This document shows positions 1,652 to 48,612 of a DNA stretch of 64,000 bases, piece by piece. The stretch is taken from positions 1 through 64,000 of the forward strand of contig VHDE01000010.1 in assembly GCA_016871515.1 (NCBI GenBank), written 5' to 3'. The translations under genes and the position numbers were made by a program. Below the pieces are notes generated by a model. The model had not been told where the DNA came from and ran no database searches. It saw only the letters and a list, made by a program, of their open reading frames with translations. The stretch's first letter is position 1, and every line of letters begins with the position of its first letter. Source of the stretch: Verrucomicrobiota bacterium (GTDB taxonomy: Bacteria > Verrucomicrobiota > Verrucomicrobiia > Limisphaerales > SIBE01).

Positions 1652-1744
1652 ATGCCAGGAGCGCGGCGTCCCGCCTGTCCGGCATCTGCGTCCACCAAGA
1701 GCAGGACAGGCGAGACACGCTGTCCTGCTGCATTCATGGGCGGT
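1652..1744. repeat. Palindromic intergenic repeat, core type A (GCGTCCCGCCTGTCC...GGACAGGCGAGACACGCTGTCC)
   Basis: Inverted arms; same core recurs at about 4188, 5283, 11372, 22555 and 41756. Confidence 0.8.
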
Positions 1745-4014: not shown

Positions 4015-4187
4015 TTGCCGGGTGCGGCGCTTGGGGCTTTATACCCAATTCTCGCCGCGCGGGAAAAATTGAAGTCGGTGCGTTAGAAGACGCTTATGCT
4101 TTTGGAGGATAATGGATTGCCCCAGAAACGCGAATGGCATGACGTTCAGCAAGATGGTGCATCGGCCGCAAAAAGGCGTGGGAACGT

Positions 4188-4285
4188 CCCATGAACCGGA
4201 ACGTAGGATAGGCGTCCCGCCTGTCCAAGCATTTGCGTACAGCAAGAGCGTAGACAGGCGAGACGCGCTGTCCTGCCAGGCGCCG
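4188..4285. repeat. Palindromic repeat, core type A with CCCATGAACC left anchor
   Basis: GTAGGATAGGCGTCCCGCCTGTCC...GACAGGCGAGACGCGCTGTCCTGCC. Confidence 0.8.
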
Positions 4286-5282: not shown

Positions 5283-5385
5283 TTTCCGTGAACTGCTTGG
5301 CAGGAAAGCGCGTCTCGCCTGTCCAAGCGTTGAGGTGCATCGGGACAGGCGGGACGCGCTGTCCTGCGAAGTTCATGAGCGCAAT
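5283..5385. repeat. Palindromic repeat, core type A with GTTCATGAGCGCAATGCG right anchor
   Basis: GCGCGTCTCGCCTGTCC...GGGACAGGCGGGACGCGCTGTCC. Confidence 0.8.
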
Positions 5386-5430
5386 GCGTGCGCAAGGCGA
5401 ATGGAGCCTCTCGATGAACCTCCTGGCAAG

Positions 5431-5513
5431 TAGTCCCGCCTTTAGGCGGCAGCATTTGCTGGCAGCGAAACACATTGGCGGAGGGCAATCGCACCGCCTG
5501 AAGCCGGGACTAC
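5431..5513. repeat. Palindromic repeat, core type D (TAGTCCCGCCTTTAGGCGG...CCGCCTGAAGCCGGGACTA)
   Basis: Inverted arms; immediately downstream of GATGAACCTCCTGGCAAG; partial copy at 15662. Confidence 0.75.
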
Positions 5514-5582
5514 ATACCACACCAGTGATGGTTGGCCAAATGCGAATTGCTGATAAGCGAGGGGCGATATTACCTCTTTCCT

Positions 5583-6763: not shown

Positions 6764-6893
6764 TCGTAGCGCAGACTTGCAGTCGGCATCGCGCCCGAAA
6801 AGATCGGGCAGTCTCGGTCCTTACGGATGCGCTGCAGAATGGAATTAAATGGAATTCTGCGATACAGCAGAGTGAAACTCCGCGCTACGTCGG
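6764..6893. repeat. Palindromic repeat, type E (GTAGCGCAGACTT...GCAGAATGGAATTAAATGGAATTCTGC...CGCTACG)
   Basis: Shares segments with 33356-33431 and 48267-48350. Confidence 0.65.
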
Positions 6894-6959: not shown

Positions 6960-7109
6960 ATGGAAAGACTTCTCCGAAACAAAACTTCGCGCATTGAACC
7001 CATGAACCTGAAGGCAGGGCGCGCCACTCCGTGCGCGCCGCCGCCGGCTTGCCCCATGGTCTTGCTCGGCGCGCACGGAGTGGCGCGCCCTGCCTTCAGG
7101 TTCATGGGG
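6960..7109. repeat. Anchor sequence plus perfect 42-bp inverted repeat, core type B
   Basis: Left arm 6999-7040 is the exact reverse complement of 7067-7108; 26-bp loop. Confidence 0.95.
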
Positions 7110-11371: not shown

Positions 11372-11520
11372 CCCCATGAACCTGCGCGGTAGGATAGGCG
11401 TCCCGCCTGTCCTGCTTTTGGTGTGCGCAGATGCAGAACAGGCGGGACGCCCTGTCCTGCCACGTTCATGGGGCGCAATGCGCGAAACGTTGTTTCGGAG
11501 GAATCTTTCCATGAACCTCG
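11372..11520. repeat. Palindromic repeat, core type A, with anchor ATGGAAAGATTCCTCCGAAACAACGTTTCGCGCATTGCGCCCCATGAAC (minus strand)
   Basis: CCCCATGAACCTG...GGACAGGCGGGACG...TTCATGGGGCGCAATGCGCG; anchor also at 6960 and 15603. Confidence 0.85.
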
Positions 11521-15366: not shown

Positions 15367-15768
15367 TACTTGACGTTCGCGCTTTGGATGTTTAGGCGCA
15401 ATCACGGATTTTCGGGGAAGGCGATCGGTGGCCTCTCGGAGACAATAACCACGAATGGACACGAATTGGAGGCTGCGTGATTTGATGTTCTCGTCGCTTG
15501 CCGCTGAGCAATTCGCAAGCTTGGCTCCCGCTGCCATTTCATTCGGGAATCTCGAGGCATTCAGTCTTCTCCGGCTCTTCACGAGCGAGGAGAGGGCTGG
15601 GGAGAACTTCTCCGAAACACATTCTCGCGCATGGCGCCCACGAACCTGACATTGCGGCATGTAGTCCCGGCTTTAGCCGGAGCGATTGCAATCCGCAAAA
15701 GCTGTTTCGCGACCAGCGAATGTATTCTCGGTTCCCCTTAGTTCGTGTTCATGGGTGTCCATTAGTGG

Positions 15769-22542: not shown

Positions 22543-22627
22543 ACCGTCGTCGTAGGACAGGCGTCTCGCCTGTCCAGCAGTTGCGTACACCAAAAGCAGG
22601 AAAGGCGAGACGCGCTGTCCTACCATA
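22543..22627. repeat. Palindromic repeat, core type A
   Basis: GTAGGACAGGCGTCTCGCCTGTCC...GGCGAGACGCGCTGTCCTACC. Confidence 0.8.
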
Positions 22628-31914: not shown

Positions 31915-31996
31915 GCGGATATTCCTGTCTGCAGCGGTCTGGAATTCGCCCAGACCGGTCGAGCTTCAGGATATAGCTGCGGACAGGAATGTCCGC
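31915..31996. repeat. Inverted repeat (GCGGATATTCCTGTCTGCAGC / GCTGCGGACAGGAATGTCCGC)
   Basis: 21-bp arms with 2 mismatches; related sequence at 44986-45057. Confidence 0.85.
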
Positions 31997-32145
31997 GGTC
32001 CGTCAAAGTAAGAATTGCCGCGACATCAGACAGGTAGCTCAACATGCGCGCGACAGTACCAAACCGGAGATCATTGGCCATGCAAATTGGGCTAATTGGG
32101 CTTTTTTCTTGCGGGACGATCTTCGCCAGCCATAACCTGCAACCC

Positions 32146-33355: not shown

Positions 33356-33431
33356 CGTAGCGCAGACTTTCATTCTACTGTATCGCAGAATTGTATTAAT
33401 TGTATTCTGCGGATCGCCCGCAAGTTCGAGC
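33356..33431. repeat. Palindromic repeat, type E (GTAGCGCAGACTTTCATTCTACTGTATCGCAGAATTGTATTAATTGTATTCTGCGG)
   Basis: Near-identical segment at 48267-48350. Confidence 0.8.
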
Positions 33432-33580
33432 GCCCCGGAAGGTGCGGACGGTATGCCGATTGCAAATCCGCGATACGCGCTGCGCTTAACACGCACGTTC
33501 CGTGCGGAACACAGTTTTGTAACACGCGACGAGCAAGCGCTAGCGATCGCGGAGCTTCTAGGTTTTCCCGGTTTTGTCTT

Positions 33581-40514: not shown

Positions 40515-41594
40515 ATGATTGAGCGATCCATCCAGAGTTGCACGCGCGAGCAGTTGGGCGAGTTGGCGCAGCGTGTTTTGGCAGGCGGTTCCGTGACGCG
40601 CGAGGAAGGCGCGTGGTTGTTTAACATCGAGGCGGCTGCGGACATTTTTGATCTGTTGTCGTGGGCCAATCGCATCCGCGAACATTTCAAAGGCAACAAA
40701 ATTCACCTTTGCTCGATTGTGAATGCGAAGGCTGGCGCTTGTTCGGAGAATTGCCATTTTTGCGCGCAGTCGTCGTTCTATCAAACCGGTTCGCCACGGT
40801 ACGGATTCATCGATCCCGACCCTGTGTTCGCGGCGGCCGAGGAGGCGAACCAAAATGGTGTCACGGCCGTGGGGTTGGTTGCGGCGTGGAAGGGGCTTAA
40901 GGAAGGTCCGATGCTGGACGAAGTATGCGATCGCATTCGTGATCTGGCGAAAAGCGGGAAAGCGCGGCCCGACGCATCGCTCGGCATTATCAAGAGTCAG
41001 GAGGTGGCGGACCGGCTGAAGGAAGCAGGTTTGGAATGTTACGGACACAATCTGGAAAGCTCGAAACGTTTCTTCCCGCAGCATTGCACGACGCACACCT
41101 ACGAGGATCGGATCGAGACGATTGGTTACTTGAAGAAGGCGGGGATCAAGATTTGTTCGGGCGGGATCATTGGCATGGGCGAAACGCGCGAAGACCGCTG
41201 CGATCTGGCGTTTGCGTTGCGCGAGATAGGGGCAAACGTGGTGCCGATTAATATTTTGAATCCAATTCCGGGCACGCCGTTCGAGCATGTGCCGCCGTTG
41301 CCGCCGCTGGAAATCCTCAAGACGATCGCTTGTTTCCGGTTTATTCTGCCGCGTCAGGAGATCATGGTGGCGGGCGGGCGCACAGTGAACCTGCGCGATT
41401 TGCAAAGCATGATCTTCGTGGCCGGAGCAAGCGCGTTGATGGTGGGGAATTATCTCACGACGTTGAATCAACCGGTGGAAAAGGACCTGCAAATGATCAA
41501 GGACCTCGGTCTCGATCCGAACTGGGACAAGCATGATTTTGCGGATCAGATGGAAGCCGGAGATGAATCTCGATTGTCCTCGGAGAATCACTGA
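40515..41594 (+). CDS. bioB: Biotin synthase
   Basis: CSENCHFCAQSSFY radical-SAM CxxxCxxC; YGHNLESSKRFFPQ; ICSGGIIGMGE; VPINILNPIPGTPFE. Confidence 0.94.
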   Translation: MIERSIQSCTREQLGELAQRVLAGGSVTREEGAWLFNIEAAADIFDLLSWANRIREHFKGNKIHLCSIVNAKAGACSENCHFCAQSSFYQTGSPRYGFIDPDPVFAAAEEANQNGVTAVGLVAAWKGLKEGPMLDEVCDRIRDLAKSGKARPDASLGIIKSQEVADRLKEAGLECYGHNLESSKRFFPQHCTTHTYEDRIETIGYLKKAGIKICSGGIIGMGETREDRCDLAFALREIGANVVPINILNPIPGTPFEHVPPLPPLEILKTIACFRFILPRQEIMVAGGRTVNLRDLQSMIFVAGASALMVGNYLTTLNQPVEKDLQMIKDLGLDPNWDKHDFADQMEAGDESRLSSENH

Positions 41595-41645
41595 GCAGTG
41601 ATTTTGCGGTATCGCAGGAAGCAAATGCGCGCCAGCCTCCTTCCC

Positions 41646-41852
41646 ATGAACCTGCTTGTGAACGATGGCTGGCGAAGGCAAAAAGCAGCCCCTCTCTCCA
41701 TCGGATGGGGCGAGGGGCTTTATGCACCAGGTTCATGCTCCCAATGCGCGCAACTGAACGTAGGATAGGCGTCCCGCCTGTCCAGCATTTGCGTACACCA
41801 AGAGCATAGACAGACGAGACGCGCTGTCCTACCAGGTTCATGGTCCCAATGC
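41646..41852. repeat. Two tandem modular palindromes: core type C then core type A, sharing CCATGAACCTG / CCAGGTTCATG...CCCAATGCG termini
   Basis: CCCATGAACCTG...CCAGGTTCATGCTCCCAATGCGCG then TAGGATAGGCGTCCCGCCTGTCC...CCAGGTTCATGGTCCCAATGCG. Confidence 0.85.
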
Positions 41853-41905
41853 GTGTCAACTTCCAACCAATACACCGACAGGCGAGACGCTGCGGGACGC
41901 CTGTC

Positions 41906-43459
41906 CTATGGACTAACTGCGGCGGTGGTTGTGTTTGTGGATGGCGGGGTCGCGAAGAAGTGATCTTTGACGATGCCGTAACGTTGGAGAACGCGACGCG
42001 TGGCTTGCTCTTGTTCATCCGCGGCGAGGACGAGGCGGCGCAGGGAATCGCTTTCCATGAATTGAATCTGATGGAAGCCGTTGATCGGTTTGCGCAGCGC
42101 TTCACGGAGTTCGGGCAAGCGGCTGATTTTTTGCCCGTTCACTTTATCCACCACCAAATGCCTTAAGTCCTGATAACCGAGATTATAGATGTCGGGCAAC
42201 ACTTGAGATAGAAGGACGAGCGCGGGTCGTTCGCGCGTTGGCTCCTGGTTGTTGTAGTAGTAGAGGCGGAATGGGGAACGGCGTTTCCAGTCGGCGCCCC
42301 AACCCTGGAGGAAAGCATCGGTGAGCGGTTGAAACACGAGACCGCCTACAATCAAGTATTCCGGTTCCTGATCGTACACCGCGTCAGGCACGAGCGTCGA
42401 ACTGTACTCCGCTTTAGGGAGGCGATAGGTCACGTCTTGGGCTTTGCCATCGCGCCAGATTTTCAGCTTCACGTCGTCGCCTGCCCACTTGCCGCGCGTG
42501 GCGAGATTCTCGAGTGAAAGATGGCCGTAGTTCGGGTCGTCGTAATCGCCTTGAATATCGATGTCGAAACCATCGACTTGCAGGAGGATGTCGCGCGGCT
42601 TCAAAGGTGATTCCTGGCCGGGGCGCGACGGGACTTCAATCACGAGCACGCCGCGAGGTTCGCCTTGAAGTTTGAGGAAGGAGAGGCTGGCGGGGTTTTC
42701 GGCGGGTTGCCAGTAAAAATCGAAATAACCTAAGCCGCGATACGACCCTTTCTGGCGCGCTTCCAAAATCGGACGGATGAACGAGGCCGGAATGACAGTG
42801 CACTTCGTGCCCGCTTGCTGTTCGGTGATTCCAACGATGCGCCCGTCGGCGATGACGGGTTCACCCCAGCCTGTGCTCTGAATCTCCGAACTGATTTCCA
42901 GTGTGACGTGCGGGACGAAACTCAACGGGCCGTTATCGACGCTGAACTGAGTGAATTCGGCTTTGCGCGTCTCGAGTTTTCCTTCGCGCCACCGCGTGAT
43001 TTGAAAGGACTCGGTATTGGGGGAAGGATCGCGCAATTGGACGGGCCTCAAGTCCTGCCAGAACGACGCATCCGTCAAGCTGACGATGGCAAGGTTCGCG
43101 TGGTAATCGAGCCAACTCACTTCGCCGTTGAACCAGCGGCCTCGCCCGCCTTTTTGAACGCGAACGAGTGTGCGATCGAATAACTGGTCGGCTGTGGTGA
43201 GAATCTCCTGCCCTTCGAGCACCAAGCCCATCTTAATGGTGTTCTTGGTTCGCTTGGACCACGGCTGGAAGTAGTCGTACTGCTTGCGTGTGACGTCGAG
43301 GAGAACCACCGCACGTTCCCAATTGAGTCGAGTCGAGCGGTCAGGAGCGGTGTTTGCCGACTCACGTTCTGCGGCATTTGTGGGAGGGGACGTCGACTGT
43401 ATCATGACGGCAATGGCAAAGATGCCGGAATACTGTTGAAAACGACGGTTAGGATTCAT
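41906..43459 (-). CDS. HtrA-like PDZ protein lacking the serine-protease triad
   Basis: Aligns by eye with the upstream paralogue; TGWGEPVIADGRIVGI replaces GNSGGPVIQDDLVVGV. Confidence 0.75.
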   Translation of the reverse strand: MNPNRRFQQYSGIFAIAVMIQSTSPPTNAAERESANTAPDRSTRLNWERAVVLLDVTRKQYDYFQPWSKRTKNTIKMGLVLEGQEILTTADQLFDRTLVRVQKGGRGRWFNGEVSWLDYHANLAIVSLTDASFWQDLRPVQLRDPSPNTESFQITRWREGKLETRKAEFTQFSVDNGPLSFVPHVTLEISSEIQSTGWGEPVIADGRIVGITEQQAGTKCTVIPASFIRPILEARQKGSYRGLGYFDFYWQPAENPASLSFLKLQGEPRGVLVIEVPSRPGQESPLKPRDILLQVDGFDIDIQGDYDDPNYGHLSLENLATRGKWAGDDVKLKIWRDGKAQDVTYRLPKAEYSSTLVPDAVYDQEPEYLIVGGLVFQPLTDAFLQGWGADWKRRSPFRLYYYNNQEPTRERPALVLLSQVLPDIYNLGYQDLRHLVVDKVNGQKISRLPELREALRKPINGFHQIQFMESDSLRRLVLAADEQEQATRRVLQRYGIVKDHFFATPPSTNTTTAAVSP

Positions 43460-44907: not shown

Positions 44908-44985
44908 GTGGTCAAAATGGTCGTCACTCCGGGAATGGTCAAGTCTTAAGCGGTTCTTAAGCGGCAATTCTCCTTTTGACGGAGC

Positions 44986-45057
44986 GCGGACATTCGTGTC
45001 CGCAGCAATGTCGAGAAACCCAACCGATCCGGGCGCATTCAGACCGCTGCGGACAGA
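44986..45057. repeat. Partial copy of the GCGGACATTC-TGTCCGCAGC inverted repeat
   Basis: GCGGACATTCGTGTCCGCAGC...GACCGCTGCGGACAG; compare 31915-31996. Confidence 0.75.
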
Positions 45058-48011: not shown

Positions 48012-48266
48012 GGAGCCGCGGTGTGGTGGGGGATTATCGGGTTTATGGTTAGTTACACTTGTTACATGACGTCGCACCGCCAGTTGGCAGATGAATTTCG
48101 CGAGGTTGCTTCGAAGCAATTCGTTCGCTTGACATGGGCGAGAGGCGAAAAGCGACGCACACGCAGGCCGCGATCCTTCGCGCACCGTCTTGTTATGCCG
48201 CAACAAAGGTCGCTGTCGTAAATCCAAGATCACGGAGTGCGTGTCTAGCGCACCTGCCTTCGTCGT

Positions 48267-48350
48267 AACGCAGACTTTCAGTCTGCTGTATCGCAGCTGT
48301 ATCGCAGAATTGTATTAAATTGTATTCTGCGGACCGTCCGCAAGTTCGGG
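48267..48350. repeat. Palindromic repeat, type E
   Basis: GTAACGCAGACTTTCAGTCTGCTGTATCGCAG...GCAGAATTGTATTAAATTGTATTCTGCGGACCGTCCGCAAGTTCGGGCG. Confidence 0.8.
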
Positions 48351-48612
48351 CGTGCGACTAGGTCCTGGATTTCGCCAAGGTTCTCGCCGAGATGGTTTTT
48401 TACCTGCATGCCAACCAGACCGCCAGCCTTGTTGACCTTGGTGACGCCAGCTTTGCGTTCACCGGCCCGATATTGACCGTCTCGGTCGCGATCGAATTGC
48501 GTTGTCGTGCGGTCGCGATCCTGCAGCCGTAAATGCGGGGCAGGCGGGACGCCTATCCTACGACGCCTGAAATTCAATTTTCCAATCGGACGGCGTGGGG
48601 GTAGCCTAAGGC

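Follow-up and report, generated by a model that had tools for sequence, protein, structure and literature searches.

Copies of a small element, apparently an undescribed type of miniature jumping DNA, are scattered through the genome of a Limisphaerales/Pedosphaera-like Verrucomicrobiota MAG. A single pair of ends, which we refer to as the frame, serves many unrelated palindromes (cores), and the insertion sites of the resulting unit are exact. REP-like repeats are usually viewed as one palindrome family per transposase. We hold the anatomy, the insertion, and the core exchange of this unit, taken jointly, with high confidence. No description of the end sequence was found in the open literature.

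The window, which is the whole 64,000-nucleotide stretch of DNA analyzed here, comes from contig 10 of the host MAG (5.73 Mb in 246 contigs; labeled G000). For the analysis, 1.62 Mb of G000 was read along with loci from approximately 20 related assemblies. PSCyt2/PSD1 and DUF1501 genes initially pointed to a planctomycete, a reading rejected because the named genomes listed as matches were almost all Verrucomicrobiota.

Anatomy of the unit and its copies in the window

A shared terminus had been reported at several places by the first-pass annotation, and its coordinates proved to be right: CATGAACCTG, with at most one mismatch, matches the window 16 times versus 3.5 ± 1.7 expected. Genome-wide, the left end CCATGAACCTG occurs exactly 135 times in G000 (reversed control, 0), and the right end GGTTCATGGnnnCAATGCG occurs 131 times when one mismatch is allowed (control, 0). 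Aligned copies give the layout CT / nnC-CATGAACC–core–GGTTCATGG–nnn–CAATG–small hairpin–GGAGGCT, in which the slash marks the left boundary and GGAGAAGTCT can replace the final motif. The right part of the frame, a GGTTCATGGnnnCAATG-hairpin, faces the left end nnC-CATGAACC. This foot carries neither a GTAG nor a CGTC tetranucleotide, and the unit ends read ATGAACC and GGTTCAT. A simple terminal inverted repeat does not describe the element, which is asymmetric and carries CAATGCG on one side only. The purine-rich right terminus closes in CT (GGAGGCT or GGAGAAGTCT); this CT is less uniform than that on the left, with some tails ending in CTT or degraded. In most copies, the core is a long palindrome (20 to 245 nt). 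The "longer anchor" that had been noted ahead of the terminus is real, but it is not extra flank. Rather, it is the unit's own right-hand tail on the other strand and so part of the unit.

As a single strand, the unit presents a large hairpin and a small one enclosed by a pair of CT dinucleotides, so that there is a hairpin near each end: the large one by ssDNA folding and the tail hairpin by covariation. The two intact window copies fold as ssDNA far better than shuffled sequences (z of -6.9 and -13.1), and the truncated module 1 (41642–41755) folds only weakly (z of -1.7). Tail pairing was assessed with 30 distinct tails from G000 and many relatives, which were chosen from one length class (this helps alignment) and not on pairing. 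Among these, 87.3% of cells pair versus 61.9 ± 2.5 in shuffles, double-change cells number 46 versus 15.9 shuffled, and covariation is 0.681 versus 0.210 shuffled, falling to at most 0.14 when partners are slid by 1 to 3 columns. Of 54 loose matches in G000 to the type designated tail 1, 45 adjoin the terminus, and the remainder are mostly chance-like. By inspection, no obvious AG that might act as a guide sequence pairing with the cleavage site lies beside either hairpin; the conserved CAATG precedes the tail hairpin. Rfam gave no match above the gathering score in the window and none above chance at 41400–42000.

The copies in the window are the following.

41642–41755, plus strand: module 1, with left end nnC plus CATGAACC at 41642–41652, core C at 41653–41729, right end GGTTCATGC at 41730–41738, and a truncated tail TCCCAATGCGCGCAAC to approximately 41755; CT at 41640–41641 directly precedes the unit, whose ssDNA forms one long hairpin (z -1.73).
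41756–41866, plus strand: module 2, with core A (REPIN-like) at 41756–41832, right end GGTTCATGG at 41835–41843, and the start of a CAATGCG tail; left end missing; families D5/D6.
11372–11506, plus strand: complete frame around a core A REPIN, with left end, right end, tail hairpin (CGAAAcgttgTTTCG), and CT finish; ssDNA z -6.91.
6966–7109, minus strand: complete frame around core B (42-bp perfect palindrome arms), with left end near 7099–7109, right end at 7000–7008, and tail at 6966–6999; family I4; ssDNA z -13.07.
15603–15757, minus strand: frame around core D (GGCATGTAGTCCCGGCTTTAGCCGG), with tail 1 at 15603–15637.
5285–5409, plus strand: frame around core A/A2, with a degenerate left end and a tail that finishes GGAGCCT at 5409.
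5410–5521, plus strand: second frame, head-to-tail with the preceding one, with left end GATGAACC at 5413–5420 and core D; right end lost; family I5.
4186–4280, plus strand: left end CCATGAACC at 4189–4197, then core A; right end absent.
22551–22623, plus strand: unframed REPIN of core A type, without CATGAACC ends; families D1 and D4.
1656–1730, plus strand: unframed copy of core A type; families D2 and D4.

A second left end, at 11509–11517, follows the frame at 11372–11506. The core types assigned at first pass hold at every position. Core A, placed at 4188, 11372, and 41756, spans 4198–4275, 11385–11460, and 41756–41832; cores B (placed at 6999) and C (at 41646) span 7009–7098 and 41653–41729; and core D (5413–5513) spans 5425–5518, with another at 15648–15680. 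Two of these descriptions need amendment. The copy at 4188 has its left end but no right end. Likewise, both tandem modules reported at 41646–41852 are there, although module 2 has no recognizable left end, its core A following the truncated tail of module 1.

Two other repeats were observed in the window. One is a dispersed family (CGTAGCGCAGACTTTCATTC...CTGTATCGCAGAATT), unrelated to the frame, at 6765–6892, 33356–33432, and 48261–48352. The other is an 80-nt inverted pair (31942–32021 and 44961–45040; 81% complementary) with GGAGCGCGGACATTCCTGTCCGC-like palindromes alongside.

Insertion sites and the putative enzyme

Many copies sit within another palindromic repeat, termed repeat E (CCCCTCTCCCTAACCCTCTCCCCATC). 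For six copies, deletion of exactly nnC...CT restores a host repeat that exists intact elsewhere in G000. The flank joins of these six are 22-mers present 3 to 24 times elsewhere (at most one mismatch, 1.6 Mb read), and no match is found for any of them when the junction register is shifted by 1 to 5 bases. Random cross-joins give a match in 9 of 60 cases, all nine of which look like two repeat flanks, or a flank and the following CATGAACC, joined together. CT occupies positions -5/-4 in 25 of 27 copies in G000 and in 48 of 55 from other genomes (40 of 47 when modules with a neighbor are left out); except for this CT, the left flank is nearly random past -6. At the six resolved sites, nothing longer than CT is duplicated. 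A target duplication of 3 bp (CTC), at first read from three nested copies, was rejected: the left and right triplets disagree over all copies, and CT with a free nnC fits.

Adjacent frames are arranged head-to-tail in all 45 cases from other genomes and in 5 of 6 in G000. Approximately 30 copies of one frame of approximately 130 bp are 97 to 100% identical in the related genome G002, and thus its spread there appears to be recent. The exact empty sites demonstrate that the unit inserts, and its boundaries and the direction of the arrays are established as well. The earlier suggestion of a non-autonomous mobile element is likewise supported by the exact related empty sites, by near-identical copies at many loci, and by a patchy distribution limited to one order (described below). 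At another locus (G000:C7:23396-23569), a frame is nested in the core of another frame, so stacking is possible within units as well as beside them.

The CT boundaries, the lack of a longer duplication, the hairpins at both ends, and the stacking in the same direction fit a Y1 (HUH) enzyme. TnpA_REP enzymes cleave ssDNA between C and T beside hairpins (PMC8266576). It seems reasonable to propose that the unit would be excised and inserted as ssDNA by a TnpA_REP/IS200-IS605-type HUH (Y1) transposase acting in trans, and that it would land after CT with no target duplication beyond this dinucleotide. A usable CT would be left at both unit ends, and further units could then insert alongside in the same direction, giving arrays of head-to-tail units. 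What the unit would have to keep is just its tail and the foot of the large hairpin, which would leave the interior replaceable. Perhaps GTAG-type REPs/REPINs and further palindromes enter the large hairpin by insertion or recombination, after which the composites would spread. We give even odds to this model as a whole, namely a family of small non-autonomous single-strand elements moved in trans by an HUH/Y1-type transposase that cleaves at CT. The parts of it that we infer are the single-strand route, the HUH enzyme, and the way in which cores enter.

An origin from an element moved by an IS110/IS1111-type recombinase is unlikely, although of the alternatives it is among those that fare best. 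Such recombinases join DNA at a CT core without target duplication, which would suit the CT at both boundaries with no longer duplication, and the preference for palindromic repeats as targets points the same way. However, bridge-RNA targeting reads a longer sequence, whereas the left flank is near random beyond -6 except for CT. Moreover, single-strand transposition is the better-known setting for covarying two-hairpin ends.

Y1_Tnp genes are present in 21 of 21 genomes tested, and relatives that have few frames or none carry them just the same. Among 65 Y1 loci in 21 genomes, whose MAG contigs break at repeats, no Y1 gene lies within a complete frame and no RAYT gene is flanked by frame repeats. 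The search for a RAYT/TnpA_REP or other transposase, proposed at first pass, brought up no such partner: none of the RAYT and Y1 genes examined proved to be an autonomous frame element. The Y1 genes of G000 were rejected as autonomous copies, as they have no frame ends nearby and carry GGGG-type TIRs instead. In the genome G077, one Y1 gene lies 83 nt downstream from the left end of a frame; it carries GGGG-type TIRs of its own, lacks a frame right end, and might represent a nested insertion. RAYT genes flanked by GTAG REPs in G002 and G005 (L345, L354, and L355; GTAGCCGTGGC...GCCACGG and GTAGCCCACAG...CTGTGGG) are classical REPtrons in Verrucomicrobiota. We also observed TIRtron-like Y1 transposase genes of approximately 350 aa (MARPLRI...) with GGGGTCACATCT-type flanking repeats (L051 on G000:C160, L052 on G000:C152, L412, L426, L431, and L432).

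A DDE enzyme is about as improbable as an IS110-type recombinase. On this account, the frame and core arms would be the TIRs of an IS4-type IS, and the small copies would be its MITEs. Four fragments in G002 (L229, L231, L232, and L233) carry an ORF bounded by CATGAACC and core arms, and relative to the tail both of its orientations occur. The ORF is incomplete where the contigs end, and its last approximately 85 aa resemble, as judged by eye, an IS4-type transposase C-terminus. However, Pfam gave no match for this ORF fragment, and none of the DDE_Tnp_1 genes of G002 has frame ends nearby. The ORF was set aside as an autonomous copy, given that it could not be completed and that no DDE_Tnp_1 locus has frame ends. 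The asymmetric CAATG tail and the CT boundaries without longer duplication also do not fit, and the observation is confined to one core type in one genome.

Exchange of the cores

The proposal of constant ends with exchangeable cores, made in the first-pass annotation, is borne out. One tail type in G000 accounts for 30 modules with 8 core groups, and 8 modules with one tail in assembly JACQWK carry 5 cores. Cores F and B each occur with tail 1 and with tail 2 in G000, and all four combinations are present (2, 1, 7, and 1 copies); this direct check of two cores by two tails passes the four-gamete test. Automatic clustering found no such case, since the filters left few modules in each cluster. 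In G077, a near-constant tail accompanies two unrelated cores, of 133 nt and 97 nt, and both are found even in one array. Other genomes of the order have the same frame, yet other cores.

Several cores are REP-like, with GTAG or GCAG at the base, and GTAG was seen only at the base of several cores. Some correspond to GTAG-type REPs/REPINs in inverted pairs, and these also occur unframed. The framed fraction of arms is 19/66 for core A, 24/87 for A2, 10/22 for B, 30/49 for C, 5/30 for E, and 8/22 for F; cores C2, D, and E2 are mostly framed. Because six types (A, A2, B, C, E, and F) also turn up unframed, the cores are independent palindromic elements. For each core, the gap from CATGAACC takes few fixed values, which suggests that captures were limited in number and that the composite was then amplified. 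In our reading, independent palindromes were captured repeatedly and the composites then amplified, with the number of captures being what we infer.

The counter-reading raised at first pass, that the cores are independent elements, is therefore correct in part: six types also stand alone, but the composites amplify as units. A stricter version, in which independent REPs landed beside a short repeat of separate nature and never moved jointly with it, is a little less probable than either the IS110-type or the DDE alternative above. The unframed occurrences of these six core types would suit it. Against it are the few fixed gaps per core, the presence of both ends around the core, the precise insertion of composites as units into repeat E, and the composite empty sites.

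Gene context, distribution, and relation to known systems

It is very unlikely that the arrays are integron-like cassettes, joined head-to-tail by a site-specific recombinase that acts on a folded site. Strict head-to-tail order, constant folded ends with variable centers, and the existence of single-copy and array forms would be expected of such cassettes. However, attC boxes read RYYYAAC/GTTRRRY, and by inspection the unit ends do not fit them. The copies are also scattered over many non-array loci, and no common platform was noticed.

As a gauge of lagging-strand bias, 30 of 51 copies are on the G-rich strand (p 0.26), or 16 of 19 counting strong-skew sites only. Regarding gene context, 36 of 51 fall outside of long ORFs, and most of the others are close to ORF edges. 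This placement, and a tail ending in a Shine-Dalgarno-like GGAGG before ATGAAC, might be taken to mean that the units are immobile functional hairpins (terminators, mRNA-stabilizing, or leader elements) with short common motifs spread by recombination, but this is just as improbable as the cassettes, being weakened by the exact empty sites and countered by the near-identical bursts, the patchiness among close relatives, and the finding of no intrinsic terminator at 41646–41852.

Among the matches listed in a scan of named genomes, almost all are Verrucomicrobiota MAGs, with Pedosphaera and Limisphaerales records included. Within the order, 35 of 217 genomes have the tail pattern, and high-copy genomes are adjacent to near relatives with none. 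Among the other genomes sampled from the phylum (387, almost all of them from outside the order), the pattern was found once, which is approximately the chance level; outside the order, it is essentially absent. Full frames were also observed in records titled Akkermansia muciniphila and Proteobacteria (L255, L239, and L271), titles that may be wrong for these MAGs. The frame can serve as a search pattern for this repeat family, which pervades a bacterial order with few cultured members and fragments its assemblies. It also opens the question of which part of a hairpin element an enzyme reads and how capture gives new repeat families. Perhaps, and we suggest this tentatively as something short of an even chance, the units form a distinct class of mobile DNA that is essentially restricted to one verrucomicrobial order. 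Such a class would consist of palindrome cassettes with only the folded ends conserved, CT-directed directional arrays, a routinely exchanged interior, and movement by an enzyme yet to be found.

Several known systems resemble the frame in part. Mobile insertion cassettes (MICs) and TIMEs are characterized by DDE-transposase terminal inverted repeats, direct repeats, and cargo genes; they share with the frame constant ends, variable cargo, and, in our model, mobilization in trans. Unlike a classical DDE-dependent MITE, the frame has no target duplication longer than CT at the six resolved sites, and unlike an integron gene cassette, its ends (ATGAACC and GGTTCAT) are without attC boxes by inspection. 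Non-autonomous IS200/IS605 elements (PATEs) are similar in their subterminal hairpins, their insertion after a short fixed sequence, and their lack of target duplication. However, the target of the frame is only CT, its interior differs from copy to copy, and no autonomous partner with the same ends was found.

In Pseudomonas, Y1-gene families with non-REP ends (TIRtrons/TIRYT) and composite repeats of GTAG REPs with unrelated stem-loops have been described (PMC3733652). TIRYT-like Y1 genes are present in G000 as well, but the GGGGTCACATCT repeats around them are unrelated to the frame, and a common frame with many cores is not described in that study (PMC3733652).

Further parallels are to REPINs/BIMEs, which are moved by TnpA_REP (RAYT) enzymes and also feature many extragenic palindromes, two hairpins, CT beside the hairpins, and no target duplication. 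The frame is set apart by its asymmetric CAATG tail hairpin, by the other palindromes that it encloses, and by the exchange of its cores. As in the GTAG REP super-family, its palindromes are short, its copy number is high (135 ends), and its location is extragenic (36/51 outside long ORFs), whereas the GTAG/CGTC foot and the flanked RAYT of that super-family are not seen. Judged by the defining tag, of which it carries neither form, the frame is not a REP. By analogy, it would nevertheless work like a single-strand REP-type element, and we file it as a candidate relative only.
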